Assembly (NCBI GenBank): GCA_004379135.1
Contig: NBNI01000007.1
Coordinates: forward strand, 124,001 to 188,000
Length of the DNA stretch: 64,000 bases
Direction of reading: 5' to 3'
Source of the DNA: Acidimicrobiales bacterium mtb01
GTDB taxonomy: Bacteria > Actinomycetota > Acidimicrobiia > Acidimicrobiales > Ilumatobacteraceae
Below the pieces are notes generated by a model that saw only the letters and a list, made by a program, of their open reading frames with translations, was not told the DNA's origin and did no database searches. Shown piece after piece: positions 9,069-47,809 of the stretch; the first letter of the stretch is position 1; each line of letters begins with the position of its first letter. Both the position numbers and the translations under genes were made by a program.

Positions 9069-11342
9069 GTGACCGAGAATCGCACCGCCTTCCGTACCTG
9101 TCCGTTGTGCGAGGCCGGTTGCGGTCTCGAGATCAGCGTCGAGATCGCGAGGAAGGGCGATCGCATCGACGAGCGGGTCACGCGCATTCGCGGCGACATG
9201 AACGACGTGTTCTCGCACGGCTACATCTGTCCGAAGGGTTCGACGCTCAAACAATTGCACGAGGATCCCGATCGTCTGCGGCGCCCGCTCGTGAAGCGCA
9301 ACGGCGTGCACGTGGAAGTGTCGTGGCCCGAGGCGTGGGACGAAGTCGCCGGTCGACTGGGCGAGATCATCGAGCGTCACGGGCGCGAATCGGTGGCGGC
9401 TTACCTGGGCAATCCGGGCGCGCACAACGTGGGTGCACTGCTGTACAACCGCACGTTCCTACAGGGCCTGGGCAGTCGGCGTCGCTTCAGCGCGTCCACC
9501 GTCGATCAGATGCCCAAGCAAGTCGCCTGCGGTTACATGTTCGGAAGCGGCGCCACGATTCCGGTGCCCGATCTCGATCACACCGACTACCTGATGATGC
9601 TCGGGGCCAACCCGTACGCCTCGAACGGCAGTCTGTGCACGGCCCCCGACTTCCCGGGCCGCATCGAAGCCATTCGTGCTCGTGGTGGCCGCGTCGTGGT
9701 CGTCGATCCGCGCCGCAGCCGCACCGCCGAGGAAGCCGACCTGTGGGTCCCGATTCGTCCCGGTGCCGACGCGTACTTCTTGATGTCGATCGTGAACGTG
9801 TTGTTCGACGAGGGGCTCGTGCGACTTCCCGATCATGTGGCCGACTTCTTCAACGGAGTCGACGAGGTGCGCGCAGCGTCGAGCGCGTTCGGTCCCGAGA
9901 CCACAAGCGCGGTCACCGGCCTCGAGCCCGAACTGATTCGGCGCGTCGCGCGCGAACTCGCGGCGGCGCCTTCGGCCGCGGTGTATGGGCGCATCGGAAC
10001 CACCACCACCGAGTTCGGAACCACCACCTCGTGGCTCATCGACGTGGTGAACGCGCTCACCGGAAACCTCGATCGGCGGGGCGGAGCGATGTTCACGACA
10101 CCGGCGGTCGGCAGCCCGAGCACGCGCGGAAAGCCCGGTGTGGGCGCGGGTTTTCGCATCGGACGCGGTGGCGGCAAGACGATCGTCAGCGGTCATCCCG
10201 AGGTGATGGGGGAGTACCCGGTCGCCGCACTCGCCGAGGAGATCACCGAAGCCGGTGATCAACGAATTCGCGCCCTCGTCACGATCGCCGGCAATCCGGT
10301 GCTGTCGACGCCGCATTCGCAGCAACTCGACGCCGCTCTCGACGAGCTCGACTTCATGGTCAGTGTCGACATCTACCTCAACGAAACCACGCGTCACGCC
10401 GACGTGATCCTCCCACCTCCGTCGCAACTGCAGCGCGAGCATTACGACGTCGCGCTCTTGTCGTACGCCGTGCGCAACGTGGCCAACTACAGCGACGCGG
10501 TTCTCGCCCTCGACGACGATCAGCCCGACGAGTGGGAGATCTTGTGCAAGTTGGCACTCATCGCCCAAGGCCTCGGGCCCGACGCCGACCCGTCGGTTGC
10601 TGACGACGCGCAGATCGACGCGCTCGTGCGCAGCGCGATCTCCGATCCGACTTCGCCCATCCACGGCCGCGACGCCGACGAGATTCGCACGCAACTCGAC
10701 CGCCATCGCGGCCCCACGCGTCAACTCGATTTCATGTTGCAAACGGGCCCGTACGGCGCGGCCTTCGGATCGAATCCGGGCGGTGTGAGCATCGATCACC
10801 TGCGCGCCAATCCGCACGGTGTCGATTACGGACCGCTGCAATCACGGCTTCCTGATGCGTTGCGCACGAAGTCGGGTCGTATCGAACTCGCACCTTCCGA
10901 ACTGCTCGCCGACGTTGCGCGAATGCACGCGAATCTCGACGAATTCGCGCGACGCGATCTGGTGTTGGTGGGCCGTCGTCATCTGCGCTCGAACAATTCG
11001 TGGATGCACAACATCGAGGTCCTCGTGAAGGGCAAGCCTCGCTGCACACTTCACGTGCACCCCGACGACGCGTCGCGCCTCGGAGTTCGCGATGGTTCCG
11101 TCGCCCGAATCACGTCGCGCGTCGGATCGGTGGATGCTGTCGTCGAGGTCACCGACGGCATCCGTCCGGGCGTCGTGAGCCTCCCGCACGGCTGGGGGCA
11201 CGGGCAGCCCGGCACTCGCCTGCGCGTGGCGGCCGAGCGGGCCGGGGTCAACTCGAACGTTCTGACCGATCACCAAGCCATCGACCCGTTGTCGGGGACG
11301 TCGGTCCTGAACGGCATTCCGGTCACGGTTGTCCCCGTCTGA
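9069..11342 (+). CDS. molybdopterin-dependent oxidoreductase (formate dehydrogenase/nitrate reductase-like, single subunit)
   Basis: A 757-aa member of the MopB/DMSO-reductase superfamily. The N-terminal 4Fe-4S motif is C11-x2-C14-x3-C18 and C54 (HGYICPKG). The molybdopterin domains follow (STVDQMPKQVACGYMFG; YLMMLGANPYASNGSL; VVVDPRRSRTAEEADLW), and the C-terminal MGD-binding domain starts near 635 (VGRRHLRSNNSWMHN). The region equivalent to the formate dehydrogenase Cys/Sec is not evident, so the substrate is unknown. No electron-transfer subunit or maturation gene is adjacent. The GTG start lies 6 nt after TAGAGT (9057-9062). A hairpin terminator follows the stop. Confidence 0.85.
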   Translation: MTENRTAFRTCPLCEAGCGLEISVEIARKGDRIDERVTRIRGDMNDVFSHGYICPKGSTLKQLHEDPDRLRRPLVKRNGVHVEVSWPEAWDEVAGRLGEIIERHGRESVAAYLGNPGAHNVGALLYNRTFLQGLGSRRRFSASTVDQMPKQVACGYMFGSGATIPVPDLDHTDYLMMLGANPYASNGSLCTAPDFPGRIEAIRARGGRVVVVDPRRSRTAEEADLWVPIRPGADAYFLMSIVNVLFDEGLVRLPDHVADFFNGVDEVRAASSAFGPETTSAVTGLEPELIRRVARELAAAPSAAVYGRIGTTTTEFGTTTSWLIDVVNALTGNLDRRGGAMFTTPAVGSPSTRGKPGVGAGFRIGRGGGKTIVSGHPEVMGEYPVAALAEEITEAGDQRIRALVTIAGNPVLSTPHSQQLDAALDELDFMVSVDIYLNETTRHADVILPPPSQLQREHYDVALLSYAVRNVANYSDAVLALDDDQPDEWEILCKLALIAQGLGPDADPSVADDAQIDALVRSAISDPTSPIHGRDADEIRTQLDRHRGPTRQLDFMLQTGPYGAAFGSNPGGVSIDHLRANPHGVDYGPLQSRLPDALRTKSGRIELAPSELLADVARMHANLDEFARRDLVLVGRRHLRSNNSWMHNIEVLVKGKPRCTLHVHPDDASRLGVRDGSVARITSRVGSVDAVVEVTDGIRPGVVSLPHGWGHGQPGTRLRVAAERAGVNSNVLTDHQAIDPLSGTSVLNGIPVTVVPV

Positions 11343-46406: not shown

Positions 46407-47297
46407 ATGGGACCGATGTCGTCGGGTCGTGGTTCATTGGTCGTCCCGGCCGTGGCCTCGGTGTGGATCATCTGGGGCTCGACCTACCTCGGTATCGAGA
46501 TCGGCCTCGAGACCATGCCGCCCTTCTTCATGCAGGGTTCGCGCTTCGTGCTGGCCTCGATCCTCGTGTTGGCGTGGTTGAAGTGGCGCGGGACGCCCTG
46601 GCCGACTTGGCGCCAGACGCGCAACGCGTCCGTGATCGGCGTCATGCTGCTCGTCGGTGGTCTCGGACTCGTGACCTTGGCCGAGGATCGCGGTGTCGAC
46701 ACCGGCCTGGTCGCCACGATCATCGCGATCCAGCCGATGCTGATGTCGCTTTGGGGTGGCCTCTGGCGGCAGTGGCCCCGTCGCTGGGAATGGGTCGGCA
46801 TGGTCATCGGCTTGGGAGGTGTGGTGATCCTCGTCGCCGACAACGGCCTGAGCGGATCGTGGGGTGGAGTCGCGCTCGTGTTCATCGCGTCGTTCAATTG
46901 GAGCCTCGGTTCGGCCATCAGTCGGCGAATCGACATGCCGAGCGGCGTGATGACGACGGGAATCGAGATGGCGGCGGCCGCCGTCGGGTACATGCTCATT
47001 TCGCTACTTCGTCGAGAGGACATCGGCGTTCCGAGTCTGCGCAGTTCGCTCGCCGTGCTGTACCTCCTGACTTTCGGTTCGATCGTCGCGTTCACCGCGT
47101 TCACCTATCTGATCGCGACAGTCCGTCCGCCTTTGGCGATGAGTTACGCGTACGTGAATCCGCTGATCGCGGTCGTGCTCGGGGTGCTTTTCGCCGACGA
47201 ATCGGTGTCGGCCAACATGGCCGTCGCACTGCCGGTGATCCTGATCGGGGTCGCGATCGTCACCAACGCATCGCGGTCGGTACAGTCGGATTCATGA
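46407..47297 (+). CDS. EamA-family (DMT) membrane transporter
   Basis: A 296-aa integral membrane protein with two EamA repeats and about ten spans. The opening IIWGSTYLGIEIGLETMPP and PVILIGVAIVTN end are typical of YedA-like metabolite exporters. Substrate unknown. ATG at 46407 or three codons later. The 3' end overlaps the start of the thioredoxin-like lipoprotein gene by ATGA, so the two are translationally coupled. Confidence 0.88.
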   Translation: MGPMSSGRGSLVVPAVASVWIIWGSTYLGIEIGLETMPPFFMQGSRFVLASILVLAWLKWRGTPWPTWRQTRNASVIGVMLLVGGLGLVTLAEDRGVDTGLVATIIAIQPMLMSLWGGLWRQWPRRWEWVGMVIGLGGVVILVADNGLSGSWGGVALVFIASFNWSLGSAISRRIDMPSGVMTTGIEMAAAAVGYMLISLLRREDIGVPSLRSSLAVLYLLTFGSIVAFTAFTYLIATVRPPLAMSYAYVNPLIAVVLGVLFADESVSANMAVALPVILIGVAIVTNASRSVQSDS

Positions 47298-47809
47298 AAC
47301 GCCTCGCCGTTCTCGCGTGCATCGCCGTGCTGGCGGTGTCCTGCGGAAGCGAGACCGCCGACGCGCCGGCCCCGGTGGCCGCCGAGTCCACCGCGCTTCC
47401 GGCGCCCACCGAGTCCACCGCGCTTCCGGCGCCCACCGTGCAGTCGGGTCTGGTGTCGCGCGACGATGTGGCGATCACCGCTCCGACGGTGCTGTGGTTC
47501 TGGGCGCCCGGTTGAGGCAGCTGCAACGCCGAAGCGCCCTCGGTCGAGGCCGCATTCCAACAGTACGGATCGCAGGTCCAGTTCGTCGGTGTCGCGTGGG
47601 CCGGCTCCACCCAGGCGATGCTCGACTTCATCGACCGTCACGATCTGTCGTTCGCCAACATCGAGGACAGCGACGGCCAGGTGTTCGGCGAATACGGAGT
47701 GCCGTACCAACCGGCGTGGGTGTTCCTCGCGGCCGACGGAACTCTCACCCGGGTCCAAGGTGCGCTCGACGGCAACCGCTTGGCTGAATACATCGCCGAG
47801 ATCATCTGA
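47294..47809 (+). CDS. thioredoxin-fold lipoprotein with in-frame TGA, candidate selenoprotein
   Basis: Read through TGA 47513-47515, this is one 171-aa protein. It has a lipoprotein signal (LAVSC17), a Pro/Ala/Thr linker with a 9-residue tandem repeat, then a TlpA/SoxW-like thioredoxin domain: VLWFWAPG-U74-GSCNAEAPS, where relatives have WCxxC. The TGA replaces only the first redox cysteine and the second, C77, is intact. The cis-Pro loop is VPYQPAWVF. No other stop interrupts the frame, and a hairpin fitting the bacterial SECIS model follows. A Sec-dependent extracytoplasmic thiol reductase is the best reading; a nonsense mutation or sequencing error is the alternative. Coupled to EamA by ATGA. 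Confidence 0.82.
47384..47437 (+). repeat. 27-bp perfect tandem duplication in the lipoprotein linker
   Basis: Two identical 27-bp units (47384-47410 and 47411-47437) encode ESTALPAPT twice, lengthening the flexible linker between lipid anchor and thioredoxin domain. The exact identity implies a recent slippage event. Confidence 0.92.
47534..47553 (+). promoter_or_regulatory. candidate bacterial SECIS hairpin
   Basis: RNA hairpin inside the coding region: GCG/CGC (47534-47536 with 47551-47553), one C-C mismatch, then CCUC/GAGG (47538-47541 with 47546-47549) and apical loop GGUC. The loop begins 26 nt after the TGA. The bacterial SECIS model expects an apical loop with G in its first two positions 16-37 nt past the UGA, so it fits. 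Confidence 0.68.

Follow-up and report, generated by a model that had tools for sequence, protein, structure and literature searches.

This locus raises the question of whether a reading frame interrupted by TGA yields a short lipoprotein or a full-length selenoprotein. In the window, by which we mean the whole 64-kb stretch of DNA analysed, the gene lies at 47294–47809 on the forward strand. It starts with ATG at 47294, ends with a TGA read as stop (47807–47809) and contains a single internal in-frame TGA at 47513–47515 (residue 74), with 73 residues upstream and 97 downstream. The internal TGA occupies the first redox-cysteine position of the motif WFWAPG-U-GSCNAEAPSV, and the second cysteine of UGSC (C77, TGC, 47522–47524) is intact. 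These features, already described in a first-pass annotation of the DNA, were confirmed. With U74 included, the read-through product has 171 aa and reads MKRLAVLACIAVLAVSCGS... WFWAPG-U-GSCNAEAPSVEAAF... VPYQPAWVFLAADG... We took those TGA codons of the 64-kb window that are preceded by 30 or more open codons and followed by 40 or more, and ranked them by coding-like codon use on either side; TGA 47513 came second among 376. The top-ranked TGA is followed by a start codon one codon later, as at an ordinary gene boundary. A chance origin of the open frame around TGA 47513 is very unlikely.

The read-through product begins with a lipoprotein-like signal peptide, which a low-complexity linker joins to a thioredoxin-like domain. 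The Pfam profiles AhpC-TSA (41.1 bits), Thioredoxin (32.3 bits) and Redoxin all matched above their cut-offs, and the AhpC-TSA match (residues 47–152) runs across the internal TGA. None of the NCBIfam models scored above cut-off for this product. The signal peptide and lipobox region (47294–47350, forward strand) includes the lipobox-like stretch MKRLAVLACIAVLAVSC, and the predicted lipidated residue is Cys17 (codon 47342–47344). A permissive lipobox pattern, applied at every candidate start, matches each of the 30 rows but L033. Between lipobox and domain, the linker (47384–47437) carries an exact 27-nt tandem repeat (ESTALPAPT twice), and its length varies among close orthologues. Pro140 of the QPA stretch (47711–47713) is presumably the cis-proline expected to face the active site in a thioredoxin fold. 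An AlphaFold model, built on a three-row alignment, reached a pLDDT of only 53 and was set aside as too poor.

A protein search of the source genome and 60 relatives retrieved matches in 60 of the 61 genomes, many of them with exactly one in-frame TGA. The best-scoring loci, 30 with our own, were fetched and aligned. The column of the internal TGA holds TGA in 29 of them, in the context WFW[AS]P-x-U-x-x-C, and Cys in L048 (L064 is the same locus, and each analysis included a single copy). The first-pass annotation had asked whether homologues carry Cys at this position; they do, and the in-frame UGA aligns with their redox Cys, as in bacterial selenoproteins. Identity to the window protein falls as low as 33% among the 29 rows, and 14 columns are invariant, among them W68, F69, W70, P72, U74, C77, E80, V84 and P140. 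The dN/dS of our gene and its two nearest orthologues is 0.04–0.07 over the 20 codons before the TGA and 0.05 over the 95 codons after it; across the nine pairs tried, the value after the TGA ranged from 0.05 to 0.29. A scan of genome contigs returned two loci only, the same genes as L020 and L021. Across the phylum, matches turned up in 206 of the 396 genomes searched, and the best hits include the TGA form in other families. In G212 (L055, contig G212:C154), a Cys copy and a Sec copy lie ~750 bases apart, at positions ~898 and ~1648.

Downstream of the internal TGA, we predict a bacterial SECIS hairpin at 47534–47553 (forward strand), made of 3 bp, a C.C mismatch and 4 bp, with a GGUC apical loop that begins 26 nt after the UGA. 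Minimum-energy folding of the window sequence first revealed it, and it was then tested on the orthologues. When only distinct rows are counted (23 of the 29), 97.5% of the pair cells of the 7-bp hairpin are standard, and three of the seven pairs show changes on both sides; column pair 24–39 is found as C-G, G-C, A-U and U-A. None of 500 shuffles reached the observed value on any of five measures. Since shuffles ignore relatedness, it is the double-sided changes that weigh most. Sliding the partner by 1–3 columns lowers pairing to 28–57%, and RNAalifold independently recovers the same seven pairs. The codons of stem and loop are frozen (Ser+9 is TCG in 28/28 rows, Val+10 is GTC in 28/28 and Glu is GAG in 27/28), against a pooled use in the same genes of 0.39 for Ser TCG and 0.38 for Val GTC, whereas the Gly, Val and Ala codons at +25 to +27 vary. 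L047 was left out of these counts because it carries the other hairpin described below.

The available part of the published SECIS model gives a loop of 3–9 nt with G in its first two places, 16–37 nt after the UGA, an upper stem of at least 4 bp and an MFE of at most -7.5 (PMC13188914). The hairpin at 47534–47553 agrees with it in distance (26 nt), upper stem (4 bp) and loop (GGUC), and the 45 nt after the UGA have an MFE of -15.2. A loose search with these constraints found no fitting hairpin behind the terminal TGA at 47807–47809. We rejected that search as a test, as it also fits 7/9 and 11/19 Cys rows; the constraints being nonspecific, only position and conservation separate Sec from Cys. 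Single-sequence folding was likewise discarded as proof: the fold of 51 nt from 47510 is no better than shuffles (z 0.24), so the case for a SECIS rests on comparison.

In some Sec rows, the 26-nt hairpin (class I) is replaced by a stem of at least 5–6 bp whose loop lies 34 nt after the UGA (class II). With a 26-nt hairpin scored as at least six of seven pairs plus the loop GGTC, and a 34-nt hairpin as at least five contiguous pairs, all 47 Sec rows carried one or the other (36 at 26 nt, 11 at 34 nt), the 34-nt form having been defined on rows that were later counted. Neither occurred among the nine Cys rows compared. In held-out rows, a hairpin fits 15 of 19 Sec sequences (3 at 26 nt, 12 at 34 nt) against 1 of 22 Cys sequences (Fisher 1.6e-6). 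The held-out Sec rows L116, L123, L131 and L132 match neither form, and L121 can be fitted only by allowing a mismatch in its upper stem; the held-out Cys row L113 keeps 6/7 class I pairs, with the loop ATTC. Three f44 rows (L062, L066 and L074) have the class I hairpin; the remaining 11 Sec rows of their group carry the 34-nt form. In the tandem pair of G212, the hairpin is found in the Sec copy only. A non-Trp residue before Sec was considered as a mark of all Sec forms and dropped, Trp being present in 1/33 first-group and 13/14 second-group rows. Duplicate loci (L051, L052, L053 and L057, equal to L031, L019, L041 and L046) were removed from the hairpin and Trp counts and from the tree.

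These comparisons dispose of two readings. That TGA 47513 is a sequencing error for TGC or TGT, or marks a decaying pseudogene, would be helped by the several to many contigs of the window genome and most compared genomes, but the same TGA in 29/30 loci from separate genomes, including G035 with its single 4.83-Mb contig, together with the low dN/dS on both sides and the constrained hairpin, leaves it a negligible chance, and the error or frameshift for which the first-pass annotation had allowed is very unlikely. A UGA acting as stop, with a 73-residue lipoprotein free of the redox domain as the true product, is what a standard gene caller would be expected to output; it is just as improbable, as most of the conserved columns follow the TGA, dN/dS there is 0.05 among the nearest orthologues, and the UxxC motif and Pro140 loop are complete.

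The source genome (2.56 Mb, 7 contigs, 97.7% complete) contains the machinery that Sec decoding needs. One tRNA-Sec scores 65.8 bits, above the Rfam cut-off, and ARAGORN also calls a tRNA-SeC with anticodon tca. The selA (334 bits), selB (298 bits) and selD (326 bits) matches are all above cut-off, and selA adjoins selB. The tRNA-Sec, selB and selD models match all 14 control genomes, above cut-off in only 5, 2 and 2 of them, respectively, so only above-cut-off matches were counted for the source genome. The search for selA, selB, selD and tRNA-Sec, proposed as a check in the first-pass annotation, therefore found all four, and its view of an exported thioredoxin-fold lipoprotein whose first redox position holds Sec is supported by selABCD, by the Cys homologues and by the TGA in 29/30 loci.

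Among relatives, the gene and the machinery occur together. A TGA-bearing match, defined as at least one match with exactly one TGA (in G040 and G051 possibly a paralogue), is accompanied by selA (at least 296 bits) or a strong tRNA-Sec (at least 58 bits) in 34 of 34 genomes, our own included, against 14 of the 27 others (Fisher p 3e-6). In the 38 genomes with a completeness of 90% or more and a contamination of no more than 5%, the figures are 19/19 and 7/19. Taken by gene, selA is present in 28/34 genomes with a TGA-bearing match and 10/27 others, and tRNA-Sec in 31/34 and 13/27; nine single-gene gaps (selA or tRNA-Sec) fall in genomes that are 53–90% complete. As 14/27 genomes without a TGA-bearing match still have Sec machinery, other selenoproteins could maintain it. 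A Sec-containing formate dehydrogenase was considered as a user in the source genome and rejected, since none of the five molybdopterin oxidoreductase matches has a TGA inside the match. One molybdopterin oxidoreductase match (PF00384, 107 bits, no internal TGA) lies in the window at 9273–10553 (G000:C1:133273-134553). The same genome has a second TGA-interrupted redoxin-like gene (G000:C2:316332-316658; L093, frame 1240–2331) with the motif WSSYUGC and a predicted hairpin with loop CGGGT, 20 nt past its UGA.

A reading of the UGA as Cys or Trp, through a changed code or a suppressor tRNA, has somewhat more to recommend it than an error or a stop. Homologues have Cys at the position, and some bacterial tRNA-Sec-like tRNAs carry Cys, which counts for decoding as Cys. 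Against this, our gene and 21 of the 30 rows overall end in TGA, so UGA keeps its stop meaning; selA, selB and selD are all present; and SelB-dependent decoding, unlike a changed code, would predict a conserved hairpin downstream of the UGA. We regard this reading as highly improbable.

Given the conserved Sec codon, the Sec machinery, the conserved hairpin, the lipobox-like signal and the fold family assigned by sequence, we are confident that gene 47294–47809 encodes a full-length selenoprotein with Sec at UGA 47513, most probably an exported, lipid-anchored thiol-disulfide oxidoreductase. The UGA would be decoded as Sec by tRNA-Sec and SelB under the direction of the in-gene hairpin at 47534–47553, and the lipoprotein signal peptide would direct export of the product, which would be anchored on the outside of the cell membrane. 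In thioredoxins, a nucleophile and a resolving thiol act in turn. By the same scheme, the selenolate of U74 would attack a substrate disulfide, C77 would resolve the mixed intermediate (UGSC), and the thioredoxin-fold domain would exchange disulfides in envelope proteins.

Of the proteins with solved structures, MPT53/DsbE (88.8 bits) and DsbF (71.5 bits) of M. tuberculosis are closest in sequence, with StoA and ResA far behind. MPT53/DsbE (PDB 1LU4) and DsbF (PDB 3IOS) are exported proteins with the same thioredoxin-like domain; the alignments cover 94 and 107 query residues, respectively, and take in the active-site strand, the helix and the QPA loop. The mycobacterial proteins have CxxC, whereas the window protein has UxxC. 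With its thioredoxin-like domain, UxxC motif and conserved Pro loop, the window protein falls by sequence within the TlpA-like/MPT53-DsbE-DsbF family; its export and lipid anchoring are read from the lipobox pattern. The f58 Cys rows, which look like MPT53 orthologues and may come from mycobacteria, carry neither hairpin. ResA and StoA are extracytoplasmic TlpA-type thiol-disulfide oxidoreductases with Cys, not Sec, and match weakly, at 49.4 bits against a cut-off of 170 (ResA, NF002854) and 40.6 bits against 210 (StoA, NF041202).

As to the direction of the reaction, we infer that a reductase is more likely than an oxidase. This leaning is due to the lack of a VKOR match in the source genome (C. 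glutamicum was positive in the same search) and to a weak CcdA/DsbD_TM-like match (25.4 bits, below the cut-off of 27.1) that could supply electrons; the latter adjoins a Cys TlpA paralogue, not the selenoprotein gene. Selenenylsulfides, moreover, are usually more reducing than disulfides, which argues against an oxidase. The main alternative keeps the selenoprotein and reverses its role: a U-C selenenylsulfide would oxidise the thiols of exported proteins to disulfides, in the manner of mycobacterial DsbE and DsbF in vitro. According to the accessible text of the mycobacterial study, DsbE and DsbF, the closest solved relatives, act as oxidants when hirudin folding is assayed and leave insulin unreduced, a point against a reductase role (PMC3853704). 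The same text suggests Mt-DsbD (Rv2874) or Rv2877c as their membrane partner and links VKOR to DsbA rather than to DsbE/DsbF (PMC3853704). We see the oxidase as possible, though the less probable of the two roles.

Immediately upstream is a gene for an EamA-family exporter (46407–47297, forward strand), which we regard as a neighbour and not as a conserved partner. The first-pass annotation had described the two genes as coupled and suggested a shared function. The coupling stands in that the start of the selenoprotein gene overlaps the EamA stop in a 4-nt ATGA (47294–47297); the functional link is not supported, since EamA is absent upstream of L022 and L030, internally deleted in L021 and without a match beside other loci. 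It is found upstream in 10 of the 12 loci L019–L030, and the two exceptions belong to the same genus. Among the other loci searched (L031–L080), in flanks of up to ~1500 bases (156 upstream for L033), no EamA match was seen except beside L049, L050 and L052, which repeat L020, L021 and our own gene. The loci L031–L047 without an adjacent match include seven of the same genus. Such patchiness even within a genus makes a shared export function unlikely, and EamA was rejected as a functional partner, its adjacency being limited to part of the genus. In L021 (986–1501; equal to L050), the EamA homologue has an internal deletion of ~138 residues (76–213), real or an assembly effect, and the selenoprotein is intact.

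Selenoproteins of this general kind have been described. A thiol-disulfide isomerase-like selenoprotein (cd02966, UxxC) was published from the Sargasso Sea in 2005, and a 2026 review, in the portion accessible, lists several UxxC TlpA/redoxin/Prx-like families. Sec in TlpA-like UxxC proteins is accordingly less unusual than the first-pass annotation, which called it uncommon, had stated. As those sources describe them in the passages available, these proteins are like ours in that UxxC opens with Sec, the fold is TlpA-like or related and a bacterial SECIS lies within the gene, a likeness of descriptions and not of compared sequences. The accessible table of the review also has a UGC-containing TlpA disulfide reductase family selenoprotein, TlpA-like with UGC instead of UxxC. 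The WSSYUGC gene of the source genome, a different protein from the UxxC selenoprotein of the window, may be of that type, judging by its motif. The terms 'lipoprotein', 'Actinomycetota' and 'Actinobacteri' have no occurrences in the main text of the review as available, and the open-licence PMC matches listed, in the parts accessible, include no paper on this lipid-anchored DsbE/MPT53-like Sec subfamily or its SECIS shift. UxxC TlpA-like selenoproteins are a known kind, to which the lipid-anchored DsbE/MPT53-like actinobacterial subfamily would probably add a further member.

The history of the Sec codon was examined on two trees. In the 56-row tree, 32 of the 33 first-group (SecI) rows cluster, with one Cys row among them and the long-branch L040 apart, and the 14 second-group rows, including L062, L066 and L074, form one group (93/81); the distribution of Sec and Cys needs three changes. 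The 97-row tree (66 Sec, 31 Cys) was rooted on Cys paralogues. In this tree, 77 rows, mostly of the WFWAP type, cluster (98/82), and 13 Cys rows lie inside Sec rows. Six changes suffice, four of which are forced by starred branches, and one six-change scenario consists of one gain and five losses. This tree leaves many forks unresolved and has long branches for L114 and L131. Two more distant TGA-bearing TlpA-like genes, L132 (G286, NFWESWUTVC) and L133 (G073, NFFESWUVVC), are placed beside, not inside, the 77-row group and may be a separate Sec family. Because the rows came from best hits of Sec-row profiles and hand-picked stretches, distant Cys relatives are under-sampled. With this Sec-biased sampling and the unresolved forks, the 97-row tree favours a putatively old Sec state with several losses. 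We tentatively suggest, at somewhat less than even confidence, that Sec was the ancestral state of the mostly WFWAP-type DsbE/MPT53-like family of Actinomycetota, that Cys forms arose by repeated Sec loss, including those closest to mycobacterial DsbE/MPT53, and that the SECIS moved by ~8 nt while the Sec codon stayed fixed.

If the full-length selenoprotein is real, these actinobacteria rely on selenium for the disulfide chemistry of their envelope. As the redox domain follows the UGA, many genomes are then likely to list the gene as a short, truncated lipoprotein. The family also offers a natural comparison of Sec and Cys: one catalytic position differs between orthologues, and even between the tandem copies of G212, and structures of Cys relatives have been solved. 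It would further lend itself to studying how a SECIS may shift inside its gene, and what accompanies a change from Sec to Cys.
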